The position numbers and the translations under genes are program-made. Below, piece after piece: positions 2,620-37,335 of a stretch of 53,024 nt of DNA; position 1 is the first letter of the stretch; each line of letters begins with the position of its first letter. Where the stretch lies: positions 1 to 53,024 of the forward strand of contig NZ_WANV01000020.1 in NCBI RefSeq assembly GCF_015521605.1. Direction: 5' to 3'. The stretch is from Thermococcus sp. GTDB lineage: Archaea > Methanobacteriota_B > Thermococci > Thermococcales > Thermococcaceae. A model generated the notes under the pieces. The model ran no database searches. It was not told the origin of the DNA and saw only the letters and a list, made by a program, of their open reading frames with translations.

Positions 2620-4397
2620 ACGTAGAAGCCCATTTCTATTCCCTTTTCACTCCATATTTCGTAGCTGCTGAGGTAGTAGGTTGGGTTCAGGAACAGGGCA
2701 GTTAGAGTTCTGTTCTCCCCTGCTATCCAGACAATGTAGTTCTCCGGGTTGTGAGGGTTCCTGATGGCAATAATAACGGCGGCCCCGTTAACGTCTCCAA
2801 GTTCTCCCCTGACAACGGGGTCGGTTTCGTTACCCGTGAGCACAAAAGAGGCTGTTTCCCAGCCGGGGTCTTTTTCCAGAACCCATGAACCGGCCTCCGA
2901 CTTTACAAAACGGAGCGGGAAGTAATTTTCCATGTCCATGACGAGGGAATTGGCCACGGGGCCACCGACCAGGACGAGGTTGGATTCCATGTCCTCCGGC
3001 GTGACATTCGCGTCGGCCTTGACCACGATCTCAACGCTCCCGTTCCACTGCGAGTAGAACACCCGAAGGTTATCTGCGATCAGCTCGGCGGTTTTTCTAT
3101 CGCTTTCAGTGCCCGAGGGATCAGGGTTTTGGGTTCCATAGACCACAACGACCCTGCTCGTCACAGCACCCCTGTCGAATGCTCCCAGAGGCGTCACCGG
3201 AACCCTCTCTTGGTAAAGGGATTCAGACATTTCTGGGGGCACCCTCTCCCTAAGCTCGGTTAGCATATCATCAACGTATTCACTCACCGGGACGTTCTCT
3301 TCCAAGCTAAGCGCCGCGTACTTGCGGTATACATCCACCATATCCCCTATCCAGAACTCTCCCCAGCCGCGCTGCATCCACATCGCGAGGGCAGCGTAGT
3401 CAGGATCAACGCTTGCAAGGGAAAAGTCCATCCAGCCGTCCGCGAAACCCTCGTATACCATCATGGTATCCCACCAGAAGTGTATGTCGTAGGTGGCCAG
3501 GTACGGCATGTTCTTTTCAATAGTGTCCTCCAGGTAGCGCAGGGAGTAAGTGTCCCTGTAGTTCCCGTAGAGACCGGGCAGGGTTATGTCGTGACCGAGC
3601 TCGTGGTACACGAAGCCCAGGTAGACGAGCTGGTCCAGTCCGGTGTTGTTCACGTAGTCCCTGTTGAGCGGCAGTCCAAACATGGTGTCCCTCGCGGTCT
3701 TGTAGCTCCAGGGGGTTCTCTGCGGGTCGCGTCTCACAAGGGGCACCATCCCCCCAGCACCGTATATCTGAGTCCCGTTCCTCACAGGGTTAAAGTTGTG
3801 GCCGTGTATCGCCACAAGGTACGGGTGCTTAAATTCGAAGCGCACGCTGGAAACGTCGATGTAGCGCCCCATGAACTCATCTGGAGGGAGCAGTTTAAGG
3901 GCATCTTTATACACGTTGAGGTCTTCTGCGTAGTAGTCCTCATGCTGCATGTAGAACTCCATGAAGTTGCTCTTTTCTGCGAAGTCCCTGAGAACCTCAA
4001 GGTACTCAGCCGTCCAGGGGTCGTAGAACCCGGCCCACTGCCGCAACTCCGGAGGCTCGGTGCAATGAAGCAGGTCAGCTTCGATGGTGTACAGCATACG
4101 GTCCCTGTCCGATATCGTGGTGGCGTTCTGGAGGTGCTTCCTCAGCATAGCGACTGCCGGGTGGTTTCTGTACGGCCTGAACCACGCGTCCACCTCATCA
4201 AGGTAGCTCCCCCTGTCGATTACAAACGGGTCGTTCCTGCCGAACGCTAGATAATAGACGATGCTCAGCAGTTCCGAGTTTGGGTTGATCTCCACTGAGA
4301 CGTGGGGGCTTATCTCATACGCCCTCACCAGGGCAGTTGAGGCAGTTATCGATGCCGCCACGGCGATGACAATTATCAACACAGCCAGTCTCTTCAT
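2598..4397 (-). CDS. Secreted HELGH-motif protein, probable zinc metalloprotease (DUF4932-like)
   Basis: 599 aa with an N-terminal signal peptide (MKRLAVLIIVIAVAASI, cleavage likely near residue 25). It should be exported. Near residue 265 is VYHELGHDI, a HExxH zinc-protease motif, followed about 45 residues later by YEGFADGW, which could give the third metal ligand. The N-terminal region (PHVSVEINPNSELLSIVYYLAFG) resembles DUF4932 as I remember it. The C-terminal third (from VVVVYGTQNPDPSG, with LVLVGGPVAN) looks like a separate alpha/beta domain of the kind found at the end of Thermococcales surface proteases. No activity is proven. The promoter region is shared with the divergent metal-binding gene at 4495. 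Confidence 0.75.
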   Translation of the reverse strand: MKRLAVLIIVIAVAASITASTALVRAYEISPHVSVEINPNSELLSIVYYLAFGRNDPFVIDRGSYLDEVDAWFRPYRNHPAVAMLRKHLQNATTISDRDRMLYTIEADLLHCTEPPELRQWAGFYDPWTAEYLEVLRDFAEKSNFMEFYMQHEDYYAEDLNVYKDALKLLPPDEFMGRYIDVSSVRFEFKHPYLVAIHGHNFNPVRNGTQIYGAGGMVPLVRRDPQRTPWSYKTARDTMFGLPLNRDYVNNTGLDQLVYLGFVYHELGHDITLPGLYGNYRDTYSLRYLEDTIEKNMPYLATYDIHFWWDTMMVYEGFADGWMDFSLASVDPDYAALAMWMQRGWGEFWIGDMVDVYRKYAALSLEENVPVSEYVDDMLTELRERVPPEMSESLYQERVPVTPLGAFDRGAVTSRVVVVYGTQNPDPSGTESDRKTAELIADNLRVFYSQWNGSVEIVVKADANVTPEDMESNLVLVGGPVANSLVMDMENYFPLRFVKSEAGSWVLEKDPGWETASFVLTGNETDPVVRGELGDVNGAAVIIAIRNPHNPENYIVWIAGENRTLTALFLNPTYYLSSYEIWSEKGIEMGFYVQPLASP

Positions 4398-29842: not shown

Positions 29843-30778
29843 CTAAAGCCTCAACTCCACCCAGTTCTCTCTCTTCTTCTTGTAGACCCTCACCAGCCCC
29901 TGCTTCTCAAGGCGCTGGAACATCCTCCAGGCGGTCGTCTTTGGAATGCCCAGCATCTCCCTTACCTCGGCCTGCTTGGCCCTCCCGCCCCTGTCGAACA
30001 GGTAGAGCAGGGCCTTCTCCTCGTCCTTTGTCAGTTCGTACTCCTTGAGGCGTCTCTCGAAGTCCTCCCTGCTGATGCCAAGGGCTCCTCCCTCTTCCTC
30101 CCCGCGCTTCATGTAGAGGAAGCCCCCACCGGCGGCCAGTGCGAGGAGGGCCAGTATGCCAATTGTCGTCCAGTTTGTGGAGCCTCCAGCCGGAGTGGTC
30201 GGGGTTTGGGATGGGGAGACCGGGTTGGAGGGCGCCGTCGAATTGGAAAGTTCAGTGGTCGTTCCGGAGGTTGGGACCTCTGTTTCTGGTGGCCGGTACT
30301 GGATGACGTAGGAGACCGTCTGGTTTCCGGAGGGCATTAGTATGGAGTTCCCGTTTATCTCAAGGGGTATGTCTGTAAGGTCAACTATGACAGCGTTATC
30401 CGGAAACGTGATTTTAACGGGGACGGCTGAGCTGAAACTGAGGCTCCATATGGCACCATTTTTCGCGGTCAGGTCGGGGGTGTAATAGGTTATTTTAACG
30501 CCCGTGGCGTTTTCAAAGTACACGGTAAGGACGGAGCCGTTTATCTCGTACGGCAGGGGTTTTCCATTTTCATCGATAACGGTCAGCCCCTCAACGTTGG
30601 TTGCGAGAAGGGGGACTGAAAAGCTAACGGTGTAGTTCTCGGGGACGATAACCTCAACTACCTTAACGTACCCGTCGGAATAGACCGTGAGACCCAGAGA
30701 CTCGACCGAATACTGCCCGCTTACGAGGGGCAGGATCATGAGCGCAATTACGAGCACCATCGCTGCTTTGCTCCTCAT
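29843..30778 (-). CDS. Membrane-bound winged-helix regulator with secreted ectodomain (module B)
   Basis: 311 aa, type I topology. Signal peptide (MRSKAAMVLVIALMILPLVSG), ectodomain of about 160 residues, a Thr/Ser/Pro linker (VPTSGTTTELSNSTAPSNP), one TM helix (IGILALLALAAGGGFLYM, then KRGEEE), and a cytoplasmic winged helix at the C-terminus (EEKALLYLFDRGGRAKQAEVREMLGIPKTTAWRMFQRLEKQGLVRV). The HTH resembles TrmB/MarR-type wings. It is a clear paralogue of the gene at 32261 (shared YTPDLTAK, LTDIPLEINGNSI, GNQTVSY). It follows the helical-protein gene at 30835 by 56 nt, with GGAGGTG before its ATG. Ligand and target genes are unknown. Confidence 0.85.
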   Translation of the reverse strand: MRSKAAMVLVIALMILPLVSGQYSVESLGLTVYSDGYVKVVEVIVPENYTVSFSVPLLATNVEGLTVIDENGKPLPYEINGSVLTVYFENATGVKITYYTPDLTAKNGAIWSLSFSSAVPVKITFPDNAVIVDLTDIPLEINGNSILMPSGNQTVSYVIQYRPPETEVPTSGTTTELSNSTAPSNPVSPSQTPTTPAGGSTNWTTIGILALLALAAGGGFLYMKRGEEEGGALGISREDFERRLKEYELTKDEEKALLYLFDRGGRAKQAEVREMLGIPKTTAWRMFQRLEKQGLVRVYKKKRENWVELRL

Positions 30779-30834
30779 CCCAGCACCTCCAGAAATTAAG
30801 AAATCCTCCTTAAAAAGATATTAGAAGGGGAGGT

Positions 30835-32106
30835 TCACCCTTCGTCCTCCGAGTCGTCCTCGCCGCTGTGTTCCTCGCTCCAGCTGTCGTCCTCGGAGTC
30901 CTCATGCTGGCCGTTGTCCTCATCGTGGGAATCCTGCTCCTCATAGTCCCCATTCTGGTCATCTTCGCTCTCATCGCTGGTGTATTCGTCCTTGTGATCG
31001 TCTTTTTCCTTGTGGTCCTCCTCGTATTCGTCCTCATGCTCCTTCTCCTTGTGCTCTTTCTCCTCCTTGTACTCCTTCTCTATCTCCTTGGTGTCCTCCA
31101 TTATTTCCTTCAGCTCCTCGTTGATGTCGTGGAGCATGTCGAGGGCTTCCTCATACTGGCCGCTCTCAACGAGGGCGTTGAACCCCTCGTACATGGTCTG
31201 GAGCTCCATCAGGTTCTCCTGGAGGTATGTGGCGTTGATAGTTGAGTTCCCGAGCATGGCCATTAGCTCCTGCATGAGCTTCATCTGCTCCTGGAGCTTC
31301 TCCATGAAGGCCTGGCTGATCTCATCGGCCTTGGCTGTAACGATCTGCTCCTGGAGTTCCTCAACGGCATCTTCAAGCTTGTCCATGAGCTCCTCCGCGT
31401 ACTCAAGGTCTGCCTTGAGGGCGGTGATGTTGCCGCTGGCGAGGTCCTGGGCAACGACCATATAGGCGGCCTTGGTCTCGTTGTAGAGCTCCATGACGTA
31501 GGTAACGTTGAGGCCCTCCGCTTTGGCTTCTTCTATGACCTTCTCAACGTACGGGAAGTACTCCGCGGCCCGGTGCAGCTCCTCCTTGGCGTCCATTATT
31601 GTCTCATAGTAATCGTGCTCTTCCTCCATTTTCTTCTCCTTGTGTTCCTCGTAGTAGTCGGTAAGCTCCTCGATGACCTCCTTGTAGAGGTAGAGGGCGT
31701 TCATAGAGGCGTTTATGCTCTCGCTGTAGTTGCCCGCGTTGTAAAGCTCCCACGCCTGAGCGCGGGTTGCCTCGGCCCGGTAGTAGAGGTCGAGGGTGTA
31801 GTTGGAAATCGTGACGTTGCTCGCGTTGAGCTCGGCTATCAGGCCGGCGGTGTAGTTGGCGACCTTATCAAGTATCACAAGAAGGTTGTACGCCTGAACG
31901 CCGCTCATGTTCGTCGTATTGGTGGCGTTGGTCATGTTGACCGGGGTGGTGTTGGTTACGTTCGTGGCGTTGACCGGTAGGGTCTGGTTGCTCACCGCGG
32001 TCGTGTTGGTTGCCGTGGCGTTTACGCTGGCCGCCCACGCAGCGGTGCTGAGCGGTATCAGTGCTCCTATGAAGAGCACCAGCAGTGTTTTCATACTCAT
32101 CTTCAT
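30835..32106 (-). CDS. Secreted helical protein with acidic tail (module B)
   Basis: 423 aa from ATG 32106, chosen for GGTGAG 4 nt upstream. Signal peptide MKTLLVLFIGALIPLSTAAWA, then an Asn/Thr-rich stretch with many N-X-S/T sites, then long helices (YYRAEATRAQAWELYNAGNYSESINASMNALYLYKEVIEEL, KEELHRAAEYFPYVEKVIEEAKAEG, and others). The last 75 or so residues (30838-31065) are Asp, Glu and His, about one charge per residue. The protein should be exported and could bind divalent metals or mineral surfaces by its tail. It is a paralogue of the gene at 33133, which lacks the acidic tail. Forms an operon with the regulator at 29843. Confidence 0.8.
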   Translation of the reverse strand: MKMSMKTLLVLFIGALIPLSTAAWAASVNATATNTTAVSNQTLPVNATNVTNTTPVNMTNATNTTNMSGVQAYNLLVILDKVANYTAGLIAELNASNVTISNYTLDLYYRAEATRAQAWELYNAGNYSESINASMNALYLYKEVIEELTDYYEEHKEKKMEEEHDYYETIMDAKEELHRAAEYFPYVEKVIEEAKAEGLNVTYVMELYNETKAAYMVVAQDLASGNITALKADLEYAEELMDKLEDAVEELQEQIVTAKADEISQAFMEKLQEQMKLMQELMAMLGNSTINATYLQENLMELQTMYEGFNALVESGQYEEALDMLHDINEELKEIMEDTKEIEKEYKEEKEHKEKEHEDEYEEDHKEKDDHKDEYTSDESEDDQNGDYEEQDSHDEDNGQHEDSEDDSWSEEHSGEDDSEDEG

Positions 32107-32136
32107 GGCTCTCACCTGATGGTGGGTAGGCTCCAC

Positions 32137-32147
32137 ACGTATATTAG
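32137..32147 (-). promoter_or_regulatory. TATA region of module B
   Basis: On the minus strand TCCTAATATACGT (32137-32149) lies 31-43 nt before the start at 32106, followed by GTGGAGCC. It matches TCCTCAAATACGT before module A. Confidence 0.6.
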
Positions 32148-32166
32148 GAACCCGCCGGACTTTTCC

Positions 32167-32178
32167 CGTTTCAAAACG
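32167..32178. promoter_or_regulatory. Putative regulator site of module B
   Basis: Palindrome CGTTTCAAAACG, about 30 nt from the ACGTAT of the TATA region (measured start to start). A related AACGCTCTGAAACG sits at the same place before module A. Being upstream of TATA, it would be an activator position or an overlapping repressor site. Confidence 0.55.
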
Positions 32179-32200
32179 TTTCTCCGGGTTTCTCTTTCAT

Positions 32201-32207
32201 AAAAAAA
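32201..32207 (-). terminator. T7 run ending module A transcripts
   Basis: The minus strand carries TTTTTTT after the stop of the regulator at 32261, preceded by a small hairpin GGGCTGATGAAGAGGGGGAAGCCC region (stem GGGCT/AGCCC, 32236-32258). This separates module A from module B and shows that each is its own transcript. Confidence 0.45.
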
Positions 32208-32260
32208 GCATTCAGAAAGAGGAAGGAGAACGTTGAAGGGCTTCCCCCTCTTCATCAGCC

Positions 32261-33100
32261 CTAAAATCTAAGTTCCACCCAGTTTTCCTTCTTCCCCTTC
32301 AGTATCCTTACCAGCCCCTTCCTCTCAAGCCTCTTGAACATCCTCCATGCGGTGGTTTTTGGCAGGCCTACCGCTTCACGGACCTCCGCCTGGCTTGCCT
32401 TCCCGCCCTTATAGAAGATGTAGAGCAATGCGCGCTTCTCCTCCTCGTTGAGGTCGAGGTTCTCAAGCCTGGCCCGGAACTCCTCGCGGGTGGGCATTGA
32501 TTTTCCCCCGCTTTTTATCCTCCAGAGCACGTAGGCTAGACCTCCGATCACTCCAAGACCGGCCAGGATTGGCAGGTACGTAGAACTCCCCGTCCCACCT
32601 TCACTGCCGGCTCCCCTGCCGTTGAATGTGTAGGAGACGCTCTGGTTTCCGGGGGGCATGGTTATCGAGTTTCCGGCTATTTCGAGGGGTATGTCGCTCA
32701 GGTCGACCACTATGGCATTCCCGGGCAGCACCACAGTGAAGGAATCGTTGGTCGCGACGTGAAGCGTCCACACCACACCCTCCTTTGCGGTCAGGTCCGG
32801 GGTATAGTAGGAGACCCTGACCATGCCGGCGTCTCCGGAATATATGAGGAGGCTTCCGTTCTCAAGCCTGAAGTTAAGGGGATTTCCGTTCCCGTCCTCG
32901 ACGATAACGTTCTCGTAATGGTCGCCGAGGAGGGGGAGTTCAATCTGAGAGGAATACTCCGCGGGCAGTATCTCATATTCAACCCTGACGTAACCGTCAT
33001 TGTAGACCGTCAGAACCAGGGATGAGATGGTATACGCACTAACCCCCTGCAGGAGGATGAGCGTTATCATCATTATGATTGGGACACATCTGAGTCTCAT
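32261..33100 (-). CDS. Membrane-bound winged-helix regulator with secreted ectodomain (module A)
   Basis: 279 aa with the same plan as the gene at 29843: signal peptide (MRLRCVPIIMMITLILLQGVSA), ectodomain (YTISSLVLTVYNDGYVRVEYEILPAEYS ... DIPLEIAGNSITMPPGNQSVSYTF), TM helix (YLPILAGLGVIGGLAYVLW, then RIKSGGK), and C-terminal winged helix (EEKRALLYIFYKGGKASQAEVREAVGLPKTTAWRMFKRLERKGLVRI). The linker is shorter than in the paralogue. It begins 32 nt after the module A helical protein. A single-protein signal path from cell surface to DNA is the simplest reading. Confidence 0.85.
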   Translation of the reverse strand: MRLRCVPIIMMITLILLQGVSAYTISSLVLTVYNDGYVRVEYEILPAEYSSQIELPLLGDHYENVIVEDGNGNPLNFRLENGSLLIYSGDAGMVRVSYYTPDLTAKEGVVWTLHVATNDSFTVVLPGNAIVVDLSDIPLEIAGNSITMPPGNQSVSYTFNGRGAGSEGGTGSSTYLPILAGLGVIGGLAYVLWRIKSGGKSMPTREEFRARLENLDLNEEEKRALLYIFYKGGKASQAEVREAVGLPKTTAWRMFKRLERKGLVRILKGKKENWVELRF

Positions 33101-33132
33101 TTAAGCATCCCTCCGCAATGAAAAAGGAAAGG

Positions 33133-34338
33133 TCAGGAGTGGGCGAGTATAAACTCATCGACCTTGTGGAGCATGTCCAGCGCTATGGCGAAGTGCGCCT
33201 TGGCCTGGAGGGGCTTCTTTGCTTTGAGGAGCTCGACGCCTATCCTGAGCTCCTGGGCGGCCACCTTCAGCCGAACCTCCGCCCTGGTGGTGTCAACGCC
33301 CCTGCTCTTGAGCTCCCTGAGAGCCTTTGCATCCTTCTGAATCCTGTCGTTCATCTCCCTGAGGAAAGCGCGAACGTCCTTCAGCTTTTCATCGAGCTCC
33401 CTCTCACGAACCTTCCTGAGCACGAACTCAACGGCGTTGTGGAACTCAACTATGGTTTCCCTGTTATCCTTCATGACTGTCAGGGCGTCCTCCCATTTAC
33501 CCTCGTCAGCGAGGGCCTTGACCTGACTGTAAACCTCCGAGAAAGCATTGAGCCTCTCCTGGAGCTCCGTCACGTTGTAACCGTTCTGTTCCCCGACTTC
33601 AATCGCCTTCTGGGCTATTTCCATACTCTTCTCGCCCTTGATCAGGAAGTCTTTGACGATCTCCTCGGCGTTTGCGTAGGCCAGCTCCTCGCGGACCTTC
33701 CTCAGCTCCTCGTCGAGGAGGGCTTTCTTCTCCTTGGCGACTTCATAGTCTGCCTTCGCCTTTTCGTAGTCCCCGGCCTTAAGGTCATCGAGCACAACTT
33801 TGTAGGCATCTCTGGTCTCGTTGTAGAGCGCGGTCAGGTTGCCCACGTCTATTCCCTGGTTCTCCGCCAGCCTGATTGTCTTTTCAACGAACCTGAAGTA
33901 CTCCGTCATGCGCTCGATTTCCATTTTGATGCGCTCTCTGACGTCCTGTACCTTCTCTTTGGCCTCCTTAAGCGCTGAGAGGGCAACCTTGTAGTGGTGC
34001 ATGGCCGTAAGGCTGTCCAGTATCGAGTTGTAGTAGTCGCCCGCCTCGTACTCACTCACCGCTTTTTCCTTGTAGTCCTCTGCGAGCTCGTAGTGGGTGA
34101 GTATCGTGGAGTTCTCGGGCAGCTTGTCCTTTATGGGCTCTATCTTGTCCTCGGCGAACTTGCTAAGCCTCTGAAGCTGGTCGATCAGCTGACCCGCTAT
34201 CACCATCTCTCTGGTGCTGTTGTCGAGAACTCCGGTGTACGACCCGGTGGTGCTGTTGCTCTCAGCCAGGCCCAGCGGTATTATGCTACCAAGTAGCAAG
34301 GCTGCCAGGGCCAGTGCAAAACCCTTCATACCCTTCAT
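33133..34338 (-). CDS. Secreted helical protein (module A)
   Basis: 401 aa from ATG 34338, chosen because GGTGAT precedes it by 4 nt; GTG 34347 and ATG 34344 are also in frame. Signal peptide MKGFALALAALLLGSIIPLGLA, a short Asn/Ser/Thr spacer, then almost continuous helices with heptad-like patterns (QRLSKFAEDKIEPIKDKLPEN, YEAGDYYNSILDSLTAMHHYKVALSALKEAKEKVQ, ALYNETRDAYKVVLDDLKAGDYEKAKADYEVAKEKKALLDEELRKVRE). It shares the segment YxAGxYxxSIxxSxxAxxxYK with module B. No enzymatic motif is seen. It precedes its regulator in the same operon. Confidence 0.8.
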   Translation of the reverse strand: MKGMKGFALALAALLLGSIIPLGLAESNSTTGSYTGVLDNSTREMVIAGQLIDQLQRLSKFAEDKIEPIKDKLPENSTILTHYELAEDYKEKAVSEYEAGDYYNSILDSLTAMHHYKVALSALKEAKEKVQDVRERIKMEIERMTEYFRFVEKTIRLAENQGIDVGNLTALYNETRDAYKVVLDDLKAGDYEKAKADYEVAKEKKALLDEELRKVREELAYANAEEIVKDFLIKGEKSMEIAQKAIEVGEQNGYNVTELQERLNAFSEVYSQVKALADEGKWEDALTVMKDNRETIVEFHNAVEFVLRKVRERELDEKLKDVRAFLREMNDRIQKDAKALRELKSRGVDTTRAEVRLKVAAQELRIGVELLKAKKPLQAKAHFAIALDMLHKVDEFILAHS

Positions 34339-34598
34339 GGGCATCACCTATGAAGGCTAGGCACTTAACGTATTTGAGGACTCCGACGGAACGAACGTTT
34401 CAGAGCGTTCCATTCTTTTCAACCAGCCCAAATAGGCTGTCTGTAAGGCATATCTCCTGTTCGCAGGTTTGAATGAAGGATTAAACTCCGTGTCCCGATT
34501 TCTGCATCCACCCACGGCAATGCTCGGCACGTCCCCCCGAAATCCACAGTCAAGTTCCTCAAGTGCCGTATTCGGTGAGGTGTTAATAAATATGTGCC
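34339..34598. other. 260-nt intergenic region carrying the module A promoter
   Basis: Minus-strand TATA-like CTCAAATACG at 34368-34378 and an inverted repeat GGAACG(N12)CGTTCC at 34388-34411. The rest (34412-34598) holds no gene I trust. A minus-strand open frame crosses it, but its earlier part is antisense-like frame in TauE. The peptide in its last 45 residues (ALQTAYLGWLKRMERSETF) seemed familiar as a recurring intergenic translation in Thermococcus genomes, which I cannot verify. Confidence 0.45.
34388..34411. promoter_or_regulatory. Putative regulator site of module A
   Basis: 24-nt inverted repeat, arms GGAACG and CGTTCC, with CGTTTCA inside (34396-34402). The spacing from the TATA region's ACGT to CGTTTCA is 28 nt, against 30 in module B. 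Confidence 0.55.
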
Positions 34599-35330
34599 CT
34601 AAAGGAGCATTCTGAGTGCTACGGCCACCAATATAACGGAAAATGCCTTCCGAAGGTGCCTGGGGTGGGCTCTGTGGACCAGAAGGGCACCGATTCTGGC
34701 CCCCACAAGAAGGCCAGGTGCAAGAAGAAGAGCCGTGTGTATATCGACCTGCCCGAGGCGGTAGTGACCGAAAGAGGCTGCGAGGGCGGTGAAGAAAAGG
34801 GCGAGACTTGAGGTCCCAACGGCGTATTTCATGGGAATCCTGACGTAGGCATGGAAGAGAGGGACGTTTAAAATGCCCCCGCTGATTCCCAGCAGTCCGG
34901 AGATCAACCCGGAGAGAATCCCCACTGCCGAAATCCGGAGGGTTTTGAGTTCCCCTCCCCCAAGGTCGGCGGCGGTTTCGTCCCTCCACATTTTAAACGA
35001 GAGGTACAGGAGGAGCAGTATAAATATGGCCTTGAGAGCATCCTCCGGGAGCAGTGAGGAAGCGTACGCACCCATTAAGGCGGCAGGGACCGAGAACACT
35101 TCCTTAATGGCAACAACACGGTAGAGAACTGTTCCCCGCCTTATATGGGTAACCGCGGCTGAGAGAGAACTGAGAACTATGCACGCTAGACTAGTTCCGA
35201 TGGCCACGTGTATGGGAAGGCCCAGTATGGTGAGGGCCGGAACGATGAGAAACCCCCCACCGACCCCGAAGAGGCCGGCTATTAGACCGATGCCAAGACC
35301 CAGGAGGAAGTCCGCGAGGTACTCCAGCAT
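34599..35330 (-). CDS. TauE/SafE family membrane transporter
   Basis: 243 aa, about 8 helices. The family's two inverted half-repeats are visible: GLFGVGGGFLIVPAL at the start and GLLGISGGILNVPLF at the middle. Members export or import sulfite, sulfoacetate or other small organosulfur anions; the substrate here is unknown. A TATA-like ATTTTTAAC lies before ATG 35330. A second member of the family is 550 nt away (35878-36642), with a small membrane gene between. Confidence 0.9.
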   Translation of the reverse strand: MLEYLADFLLGLGIGLIAGLFGVGGGFLIVPALTILGLPIHVAIGTSLACIVLSSLSAAVTHIRRGTVLYRVVAIKEVFSVPAALMGAYASSLLPEDALKAIFILLLLYLSFKMWRDETAADLGGGELKTLRISAVGILSGLISGLLGISGGILNVPLFHAYVRIPMKYAVGTSSLALFFTALAASFGHYRLGQVDIHTALLLAPGLLVGARIGALLVHRAHPRHLRKAFSVILVAVALRMLL

Positions 35331-35375: not shown

Positions 35376-35936
35376 GTGAAGGCATTGGAGCTGAGGTTCT
35401 GGTTCCTGGTGCTCCTTGTTTTTGTCCTCACCCAGCCAGGTGCAATAGCCTTTGCCAACTGGGACGCCCCGTATGGATTCTACAAAGACCTCTCTGCCTG
35501 GATGGGCTGTGCCGGGGCGGGATTGGTGCTGGTGCTCGCTTACGGCCTGTATGGGTGGAGAAATGGAGAGCTGAGTCTTTTGAACCCTATTCTGGCTGGA
35601 GGCGTCCTCATCCTAACAGCCTTAATCGGCTACCGTGCCGAGCTTGCCCTCGGGGGCGAAATGGGCTACGGTACCGGGAACGTCCTGATGTTCCTGGTGG
35701 GAGGATTCATCGGACTGGTTCTCAGCCTCCTGCTGCTGCCCGTTTCCCTGCCCTACGCGCTCACGGGCGAACTGTACTATCCCTACGACAGGCCCCTGGT
35801 GATCGCGTGGGTGGTCATGATAGCCCTGACTCTCCTACTTGGGGCGGCTTATCTAAAAGAAAGAAGGAGAGAAGGGCTCACGGAATCGGAAGGCCGAGAC
35901 CCTTCAGTATCATCCTCAGAGCCAAGAGGGCCATGA
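35376..35936 (+). CDS. Hypothetical membrane protein
   Basis: 186 aa from GTG 35376 with GGTGGT 3 nt upstream. About five hydrophobic helices (FWFLVLLVFVLTQPGAIAFA, AGAGLVLVLAYGLYGW, ILAGGVLILTALIGY, VLMFLVGGFIGLVLSLLLLPVSLP, LVIAWVVMIALTLLLGAAYL) and a polar C-terminal tail. I do not recognise the family. Its 3' end overlaps the convergent TauE gene by 59 nt. Placed between two TauE genes, it could be related in function, but nothing else shows that. Confidence 0.65.
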   Translation: MKALELRFWFLVLLVFVLTQPGAIAFANWDAPYGFYKDLSAWMGCAGAGLVLVLAYGLYGWRNGELSLLNPILAGGVLILTALIGYRAELALGGEMGYGTGNVLMFLVGGFIGLVLSLLLLPVSLPYALTGELYYPYDRPLVIAWVVMIALTLLLGAAYLKERRREGLTESEGRDPSVSSSEPRGP

Positions 35937-36642
35937 CCACTGCGAAGGCCTTCTTAAGCGACGCTGCCTTGGTTCTCTTGGCTATTCTCGCACCGAGCTG
36001 GGCGCCGATTATGAGGCCCGGCACGAGGAGTACCAGCCACTGGGTCTCAACGTTGCCCATGGCGTAGTGCTTGAGCGCTCCAGCGGTCGCGGTGAAGACT
36101 ATCGCAAAGCTGGAGGTTGCCACCGCGTAGTGTATGGGCAGACCGAGGTAGGTCAGGAAGGGCACGTTGATTATTCCGCCGCCGACGCCGAGCAGACCGC
36201 TGGCGATTCCGGCGAAGAAGCCGCCGACCGGCACCAGCTTGTAGTTGACCTGCACTTCTTCAAGCTTAACCTCGCTCGGCTCTGCGGTTTTCTTGCGGTA
36301 TATCCTGACGGCGACTACCACAAGGGCGAGACCGAAGATGACCTTCAGCTGGGCGGCGCTTATAAAGGAAGTCAGCCACGCGCCGATGTAGGCACCGACT
36401 ACGGCAGTTGAGGCCAGCAGAAGGCCGACCTTGTAGTGTATCCTCCTCTGCCTTGAGTAAGCTATGGCCGAGCTGAGGGAGGTAAAAACCACAGCGGCGC
36501 TCGACGTTCCGACGGCGTGGTGTATCTCGACGCCGAGGAAGTTGAGCGTGGGGACTATCAGGAATCCACCCCCGAGACCAAAGAGGGCCGCAAGGATGCC
36601 GATGAATACTCCGACCGCGAAGTAGCCTAGATATTTCAGCAC
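35878..36642 (-). CDS. TauE/SafE family membrane transporter (second copy)
   Basis: 254 aa, two half-repeats with GLGGGFLIVPTLNFLG and GLLGVGGGIINVPFLTYLG. It starts at GTG 36642, just after a perfect GGAGGTGAT ribosome site. It is probably cotranscribed with the PIN toxin (4-nt gap) and the AbrB-type antitoxin upstream, which would be an accident of operon order. Confidence 0.9.
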   Translation of the reverse strand: MLKYLGYFAVGVFIGILAALFGLGGGFLIVPTLNFLGVEIHHAVGTSSAAVVFTSLSSAIAYSRQRRIHYKVGLLLASTAVVGAYIGAWLTSFISAAQLKVIFGLALVVVAVRIYRKKTAEPSEVKLEEVQVNYKLVPVGGFFAGIASGLLGVGGGIINVPFLTYLGLPIHYAVATSSFAIVFTATAGALKHYAMGNVETQWLVLLVPGLIIGAQLGARIAKRTKAASLKKAFAVVMALLALRMILKGLGLPIP

Positions 36643-36646
36643 TCAA

Positions 36647-37060
36647 TCACCTCCTCAGAATCCTTCGTATTGCTTCGCTTATGCTCCACACTTCAATCAG
36701 ACCTTCTTCGGCCACCTTCTCAAAATGCCTATCATTGGTTATCAATACCGCCCCCGTTTTCAGACAGGTGGCCACGTGCACCGCATCAGCGATCTGAGTG
36801 GGAGGAAAGTAGGGAAGGAGACGAAGCACCTCTTCTCGGCTGGGATTAACTATTTCCATTCTGAGCCTCAGGAACTCGTAGAAATTCCAGGAATTGAGCC
36901 TCTCCGCATATTTCCGATACTCGGCCAGCAGGACATCGTTTCCAATAACCCCGTATTTATCATCGGATAAAATATGGAGCAGGAGCTCTGTGGTGTCCGT
37001 CCAGCCCTTTTTCACTGCAACTATAAAGACGTTGGTGTCCAGGAGAAATTTAGAGGCCAT
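36647..37060 (-). CDS. PIN-domain toxin
   Basis: 137 aa. PIN acidic residues: LLDTNVFIV (Asp near residue 7), LLAEYRKYA (Glu), QIADAVHVATCL (Asp) and LITNDRHFEK (Asp). The frame is open to 37075, but ATG 37060 (MASKFLLDTN) is typical. It overlaps the antitoxin gene by 11 nt. PIN toxins are RNases. Confidence 0.88.
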   Translation of the reverse strand: MASKFLLDTNVFIVAVKKGWTDTTELLLHILSDDKYGVIGNDVLLAEYRKYAERLNSWNFYEFLRLRMEIVNPSREEVLRLLPYFPPTQIADAVHVATCLKTGAVLITNDRHFEKVAEEGLIEVWSISEAIRRILRR

Positions 37061-37304
37061 AGAGCTCTTTCGCAACCCTATTCCCCTCTTTCTCGGTTTC
37101 TTCCTTTAGTTCGTCGAGATTGATGCCTTTGGCGTTCTTTATCATTTCTTCAAGCATCTTCCTGACGTCGAAGCGTTTCATGACTATCGTATCCCCATCT
37201 ATCTCAGTTATCAGGAACTCTTCTCCGGGCTTTATGCCCATCCTTTTTCTGATATCCTTCGGAATGACCACCCTGCCTTTGGTGTCGACCTTAGTCAGTC
37301 CCAC
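37050..37304 (-). CDS. AbrB/SpoVT-type antitoxin
   Basis: 84 aa. The swapped-hairpin AbrB core reads GLTKVDTKGRVVIPKDIRKRMGIKPGEEFLITEIDGDTIVMK, followed by a helical toxin-binding tail (RKMLEEMIKNAKGINLDELKEETEKEGNRVAKELYGL). Start codons are GTG at 37322, 37313 or 37304; 37304 has GGTGG 5 nt upstream. A TATA box (CTTAAATATT on the minus strand) lies about 33 nt farther up. It likely represses its own operon. Confidence 0.85.
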   Translation of the reverse strand: MGLTKVDTKGRVVIPKDIRKRMGIKPGEEFLITEIDGDTIVMKRFDVRKMLEEMIKNAKGINLDELKEETEKEGNRVAKELYGL

Positions 37305-37335
37305 TTTTCCCACCAATCCCACATATGCATCAGGA

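Follow-up and report, generated by a model that had tools for sequence, protein, structure and literature searches.

Transmembrane transcription regulators (TTRs) have already been described as a class that is enriched in the Thermococci and in which a single membrane pass is the commonest arrangement (Demey et al. 2023, PMC10269533). The archaeal membrane-bound regulator ArnR carries an N-terminal helix-turn-helix (HTH), HAMP-like and sensor domains, and two C-terminal transmembrane helices (PMC6396743). Here we analyze a 53,024-nucleotide stretch of Thermococcus sp. DNA (the window), which comprises one entire contig (C20) of a 2.03-Mb genome in 42 contigs. On its minus strand lie two tandem gene pairs, each encoding a secreted helical protein (H) followed by a membrane-anchored winged-helix regulator (R). 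R conforms to the definition of a TTR, with a predicted transmembrane helix and a predicted DNA-binding domain placed in the cytoplasm. We propose, with a probability of about 0.62, that H and R constitute a self-regulating cell-surface module in which R would autoregulate its own operon and H would act as the extracellular partner.

The original prediction from the letters of the window was that of two H-R pairs in tandem, and all four open reading frames (ORFs) were found in place, namely H1 (33133-34338; 401 amino acids, aa), R1 (32261-33100; 279 aa), H2 (30835-32106; 423 aa from its ATG) and R2 (29843-30778; 311 aa), all on the minus strand. The two regulators are paralogues, as that prediction had it, with identical residues in 42% of 312 aligned columns (E 7e-80); H1 and H2 are likewise paralogues, sharing 30% identity over 335 columns (E 1e-27). 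The ATG at 34338 was taken as the start of H1 because a TATA-like element (34371-34377) and a GGTGAT ribosome site precede it; for H2 an in-frame GTG lies further upstream, at 32136. A search of the window's own 2.03-Mb genome found the ectodomain in R1 and R2 only, the other matches being weak and limited to the HTH part.

Pairing of H with R was counted within the Thermococcaceae, in the window and 100 further loci (101 in all), picked from R matches except for about nine picked from H matches. At the thresholds used, 89 of 94 Thermococcaceae genomes possess R and 83 of 94 possess H. The 101 loci encode 113 proteins with the R ectodomain, 101 of which also carry the HTH, and an H gene stands immediately before the R-type gene on the same strand in 103 of the 113 cases, the median gap being 24.5 bp. 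Two families outside the Thermococcaceae but within their class (f2 and f4) have H directly followed by R in 8 of 8 loci, with match strengths of E 1e-33 to 6e-11 for H and E 1e-45 to 1e-22 for the R ectodomain. Among the 29 genomes with at least two pairs, none of 2000 within-genome partner shuffles reached the observed correlation between the H and ectodomain trees. H-R pairs are inherited as units. That H and R form a real module, as judged from these genomic patterns, is well supported.

Whether the pair always occurs together was a check suggested with the original prediction. It does so for most R and in all eight loci of families f2 and f4, but exceptions exist: some forms of R have no HTH, some H genes have no R beside them, and in one Pyrococcus-like set R stands without H. 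Eight of the ten unpaired R form one orthologous set in a single genus (g3), and the remaining two lie at contig ends. The solitary set (loci L047, L049, L050, L053, L055, L057, L061 and L066) mostly stands right after a DUF134-like HTH gene, DUF134 being assigned by eye, and has a different recognition helix, IPRTTTWRILKRLE. Loci with H only fall mostly into one orthologous group, several members of which adjoin a LeuRS gene; in other genera, a related H is followed by an HTH-less relative of R (r) of about 195 aa. These r proteins (after H in L052, L062, L070, L076, L079, L080, L084, L086, L089 and L091) consist of a signal peptide, the ectodomain and a transmembrane helix, and most end in WKR. 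Two genomes of another family (f5) contain a weak R relative and no H. Apparent spread to another class through a locus titled Methanomicrobia (L165) was discarded, its coordinates being identical to those of G096, a genome of the window's own class.

A candidate operator marks the promoters of H genes. When the DNA upstream of H1 was aligned in 14 relatives, a near-identical block appeared just before the start, reading GGAAC-GCTCT-GAAAC-GTTC-GTTCC-GTCGG-AGTCC-TCAAATA in H1. This operator-promoter element (34371-34411, minus strand) has half-sites in 10-bp phase and the core palindrome GAAACGTTCGTTCC, followed by the TATA-like element, with 0 mismatches to the family pattern. The related block upstream of H2 (32142-32192, minus strand) reads GAAAC-CCGGA-GAAAC-GTTTT-GAAAC-GGGAAA-AGTCC-GGCGG-GTTCC-TAATA(TA), ending in -GTTCC-TAATATA. 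Across the family, the operator consists of a core GRAACG-NN-CGTTYC with extra GRAAC or GTTYC half-sites that keep the 10-bp phase, and it immediately precedes the TATA box. Of the spacings between successive GRAAC half-sites, 107 are of 10 bp, 17 of 20 bp and 4 of 30 bp, other distances being very rare, and convergent half-sites lie mainly 9, 19 or 29 bp apart.

The association of the operator with H genes is tight at the level of sequence. The direct repeat GRAAC-N5-GRAAC (DR10) is 141-fold denser in H-promoter windows than in the rest of the same loci. In H classes 2-4 and others, the operator stands at 99 of 106 H genes (54/59 in class 4, 28/29 in class 3, 6/6 in class 2 and 11/12 in others), compared with no more than 10 of the 679 other genes that these loci contain; none of the 8 H genes of classes 1 and 5 has it, the class 1 pairs lacking it at 7 of 7 promoters. 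The window's own genome contains the pattern GRAACN5GRAACN15-29YCCTMAWW twice in 2.03 Mb, only at the H1 and H2 promoters, and a 41-base pattern allowed up to 3 mismatches retrieved 25 sites in 31 genomes, while the reversed control retrieved 0. All 8 loci of families f2 and f4 have the core palindrome upstream of H, followed by a GTYCCTTAA element; one copy is cut by the contig start and one has a single mismatch. Conservation of the module and of the operator is apparent in the sequences themselves. Four extra matches to GRAACN5GRAACG in the own genome (C6, C11, C38 and C41), which have neither the remaining operator nor a TATA element, were set aside as chance occurrences, as was a match before a pyruvate-kinase-like gene (L286, with orthologous matches in three other genomes), which lacks the palindrome and is probably fortuitous. 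An ORF of 168 aa (L120:6251-6757) that immediately precedes an H gene with a Met tail has its own copy of the operator, and part of this ORF resembles, by eye, a fragment of the H repeat.

R is the leading candidate for the protein that reads this operator. The operator occurs in 0 of 5 genomes without detected R, three of which are incomplete, compared with 78 of 89 genomes with R (Fisher p 8e-5). Moreover, the recognition helix PKTTAWRMF(K/R/Q)RLE is nearly unchanged through classes 2-4 and is altered in class 1, mostly to LPKTTVWRMVRRLE (PKTTVWRMVRRLE), a class without the operator; the recognition helices of R1 and R2 read LPKTTAWRMFKRLE and IPKTTAWRMFQRLE. Together these patterns strongly suggest, and we infer, that R binds the operator at H promoters. 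The operator is retained before H genes whose neighbouring r lacks an HTH, which suggests control in trans by another, HTH-bearing R.

Other candidate targets form a short list. Operator and promoter precede a gene for a membrane-anchored Laminin_G_3 (concanavalin A-like) protein in 5 genomes (L276, L279, L280, L281 and L285), a DUF257 gene in 2 genomes and a small uncharacterized gene in 2 genomes, and in one genome a further operator copy precedes the gene of an ABC transporter ATPase that closely follows R (L082, around 3600-3700). The position of the operator bears on the direction of control. It lies just upstream of the TATA box, with YCC at the position of the B recognition element (BRE); in T. 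onnurineus the BRE is reported as A-rich (PMC5316973). This placement, together with YCC in place of an A-rich BRE, slightly favours activation, with the operator acting in an activator-dependent promoter; repression through blocking of TFB at H promoters is possible. The original prediction had a signal carried straight to DNA, and the conserved operator at H promoters lends that route direct support from sequence.

The domain order of R, a signal peptide, an ectodomain, one transmembrane helix and a cytoplasmic C-terminal winged helix-turn-helix (wHTH), bore out the original prediction. Both R1 and R2 have an N-terminal signal sequence, an ectodomain of about 137 aa, a single transmembrane helix and a C-terminal winged helix. 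The R1 ectodomain (residues 23-159; 32624-33034, minus strand), delimited by hidden Markov model limits, is all-beta in the AlphaFold model; the transmembrane helix (residues 175-196; 32513-32578, minus strand), placed by the model and by lysine and arginine counts, is followed by a segment rich in these residues; and the wHTH (residues 205-279; 32264-32488, minus strand) was assigned from Pfam TrmB and HTH_24 and from the model, its counterpart in R2 being residues 237-311. The AlphaFold model of R1 is confident, with a mean predicted local distance difference test (pLDDT) score of 85.2, with 87-96 in the ectodomain blocks. TrmB (PF01978) and HTH_24 exceed the Pfam cut-offs in both regulators, DUF7343 (PF24034) does so in R2 only, and the ectodomain had no match in Pfam. 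The linker between ectodomain and membrane is short in R1, whereas R2 has a longer, Ser/Thr/Pro-rich one.

A Foldseek search of the PDB with the R1 model placed M1 aminopeptidases at the top (E 2e-5, probability 1.00), with a best TMq of 0.37, the ectodomain being half of the query. The output carries no residue ranges, and the match is only tentatively assigned to the ectodomain, whose counterpart would presumably be the N-terminal beta domain of those enzymes. A PDB sequence search with R returned generic wHTH proteins only. The topology rests on two counts across the 101 R proteins with an HTH. The 12 residues past the transmembrane helix contain on average 4.2 lysines or arginines versus 1.1 in those before it, the number being higher after the helix in 99 of 101 proteins and equal in 2; and N-glycosylation sequons are enriched in the ectodomain (375 observed versus 137 expected) and depleted in the HTH domain (8 observed versus 16 expected). 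Since lysines and arginines follow the positive-inside pattern and sequons are distributed in this manner, the HTH is placed inside the cell and the ectodomain and H outside, a topology that is well supported. The alternative of a wHTH outside the cell was rejected on the same two grounds. Both the R ectodomain and H are probably glycosylated, as their sequons would suggest.

H, predicted originally as a helical protein with a signal peptide, indeed appears secreted and helical, with no transmembrane segment past the signal peptide in H1. The motif YxAGxYxxSIxxSxxAxxxYK, noticed in both partners, is real and corresponds to one unit of an internal repeat of about 90 aa. Because self-comparison of the H1 profile gave best offsets of 88, 89, 91 and 94 together with doubles of 176-185, H1 is taken to comprise four repeats of about 90 residues. 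In the AlphaFold model of H1 (pLDDT 86.5), the helices (40-72, 78-98, 102-160, 166-187, 191-251, 257-278, 282-345, 351-372 and 376-400) form three-helix units, the third helix running on into the first of the next unit. The modelled shape of H is that of a rod, built of four three-helix repeats like those of spectrin. Mature H proteins are rich in N-glycosylation sequons (989 observed versus 217 expected across the H family).

Profile searches found no family match for H1 or H2, and none of 26 H proteins matched Spectrin in Pfam at E<=0.01. Foldseek with H gave nothing at E<=0.001, an alpha-actinin rod appearing at E 1.8, and a PDB sequence search with H returned designed or repeat helical proteins only. 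Past the fourth repeat, H1 has no tail and H2 has a long acidic one that contains His; in other relatives the tails are Met-rich, Glu-rich with paired Cys, or His-rich, and they vary by class.

These features suggest how the module could operate. H would be exported and N-glycosylated, standing as a rod outside the membrane, with the R ectodomain beside it and the wHTH inside. By binding the operator that precedes the TATA box of the H-R operon, R would control its own pair, and paralogous R, keeping a near-identical recognition helix, would use common sites. H would be the likely extracellular input, by its amount, by docking or through a ligand (for example a metal in the class of H2-R2), and its state would pass through the R ectodomain and transmembrane helix to the wHTH. 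The conservation, the topology and the operator come from the sequences; contact between H and R, binding of the operator by R, the direction of control and the signal are inferred. The reading of the locus as a surface receptor-regulator pair is partly supported: pairing and topology are borne out, the receptor role of H is putative, and the target is modified. Neither of the two findings named beforehand as refuting it, regulators usually lacking a helical neighbour or a winged helix predicted outside the cell, was observed. With its own operon as the principal predicted target, the pair is better described by a feedback loop than by a generic signal relay.

Several observations weigh against the autoregulatory module. 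H without R in many Thermococcus genomes, together with the existence of HTH-less r proteins, implies that H also does something other than signal through R. Congruence of the H and R trees is expected from linkage alone; co-evolution of H with the ectodomain rather than with the HTH (partial r 0.70 versus 0.11 before the matched-column control) failed that control and was dropped as evidence of contact, the correlation of H being 0.87 with random ectodomain columns, 0.74 with the most conserved ectodomain columns and 0.80 with the HTH. The metal association described below comes from one subfamily. The test of R presence is not independent of H presence, most operators being at H genes, and a different regulator, lost along with R, could bind the operator. 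On such an account, a cytoplasmic regulator reads the operator, R is tethered for some other purpose and the adjacency reflects co-expression. That binding by R is a prediction and that the genome encodes further DUF7343/TrmB-type proteins speak for it; the account nevertheless seems unlikely, given that genomes lacking R, and the promoters of pairs whose recognition helix is altered, do not have the operator, and that it is conserved with R through three families. We regard it as highly improbable that H and R are mere neighbours without functional coupling, still adjacent because all pairs descend from one locus: many pairs are indeed orthologous in one locus near the MetRS gene, but others occupy unrelated contexts (metal islands, a 49-kb contig and others) across three families, and the order is always H then R.

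Two tentative readings compete over what R would sense. Seven class 3 loci (L069, L075, L077, L083, L087, L112 and L120), the class that includes H2-R2, adjoin genes for an ArsR/SmtB metalloregulator and a cadmium-family P1B ATPase, transcribed away from H-R; some also have MerA (TIGR02053) close by, an HMA peptide or FTR1. The ATPase and the metalloregulator exceeded the cut-offs of TIGR01512 and NF033788, respectively. The H proteins of these metal islands have either 43-50 Met residues or a tail that is rich in Glu and contains paired Cys. In an extracellular heavy-metal sensor, such tails would bind metal and R would relay its presence to resistance or binding genes, with H1-R1 sensing another cation. 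This is possible, and for the H2-R2 class alone metal would be a sensible signal to consider first, but the seven loci belong to a single subfamily, metal genes are absent from the surroundings of most pairs, the operator was found before H and not before the ATPase itself, and the main text of a T. gammatolerans cadmium study does not appear to name such genes. One of the loci, L112, lies on a contig of 49 kb, in a genome of two contigs, and carries two H-R pairs. The other reading, a surface homeostat in which R monitors the amount of deposited H without any environmental ligand and keeps rod density constant, is similarly tentative. It accords with the full operator of the own genome standing at the two H-R operons only, and with H-r pairs that lack an HTH and keep the operator, which would be expected were the regulated product mainly H itself; it accords less well with the LamG-domain, DUF257 and other genes that have the operator in some genomes, and with the Met-, His- or acid-rich H tails in metal islands, which suggest a ligand. 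A broader conjecture would join these elements: interchangeable secreted rods, with Met-, His- or acid-rich tails, might serve as sensors whose state a tethered wHTH reads as it controls rod synthesis, one conserved operator code, common to all paralogues, perhaps tying several such sensors into a single surface network with cross-regulation where two-component systems are few.

Other genes lie near the module. Two permease genes of the TauE/SafE family (window 34599-35330 and 35878-36642) stand upstream of H1, and the one at 34599-35330 adjoins H1-R1 in many genomes. An AbrB-like and a PIN-domain gene (36647-37322) form a pair that is likely a toxin-antitoxin unit. Elsewhere in the genome, contig C39 (L212:3821-4828) encodes a second type of membrane-bound wHTH protein, with a secreted ectodomain that resembles cell-wall-binding repeats by eye, one transmembrane helix and a C-terminal DUF7343.

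Very few routes by which information travels from outside an archaeal cell to its DNA have been worked out. The module described here occurs in nearly all Thermococcaceae, a family with genetically tractable species, and comes with a predicted DNA site, a predicted partner and a small predicted regulon, so that an outside-to-DNA route becomes testable at a named DNA site, and the operator is a handle for finding the remaining regulon in each species. In the literature searched, largely without subscription journals, no description of the H-R pair, of H, of the operator or of such an ectodomain was found, and the literature on DUF7343 yielded nothing useful. As regards the pair, this agrees with the original remark that no description is known; membrane-bound regulators as a class are described (PMC10269533).

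Comparison with characterized systems sets this module apart. No histidine kinase or receiver domain matched H or R, as a two-component system would have. Periplasmic helical sensors of the CpxP, CnrX and ZraP type provide a functional analogy to H only, and no LTXXQ or metal-resist domain was found by Pfam among the 26 H proteins. H resembles spectrin in architecture only, with tandem three-helix units whose last helix is continuous with the first of the next; unlike spectrin repeats, its units span about 90 residues and have no profile or structural match. R differs from the TrmB sugar sensors in lacking the TrmB sugar-binding domain and in having its HTH fused to a transmembrane helix and ectodomain, and it scores 13-14 bits for the TrmBL1 equivalog against a cut-off of 650. 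Like ArnR and ArnR1 of Sulfolobus (PMC6396743), R is an archaeal membrane-bound one-component regulator; in contrast to ArnR, which has no such ectodomain and for which no secreted partner is described, its HTH is C-terminal and it crosses the membrane once. In the TTR survey (PMC10269533), the associated proteins appear to be listed for bacterial TTRs, and the archaeal entry, ArnR, has none. In outline the pair resembles ToxR-ToxS and TcpP-TcpH (Table 1), in which a membrane-bound wHTH regulator is encoded next to an extracytoplasmic partner, but it is not a member of those families. R lacks the N-terminal OmpR/PhoB wHTH of the ToxR type, Trans_reg_C not being among its Pfam matches; its wHTH is instead C-terminal, TrmB/MarR-like and preceded by a signal peptide, and its partner is a secreted helical rod without a transmembrane segment, encoded upstream; no sequence relation was found.

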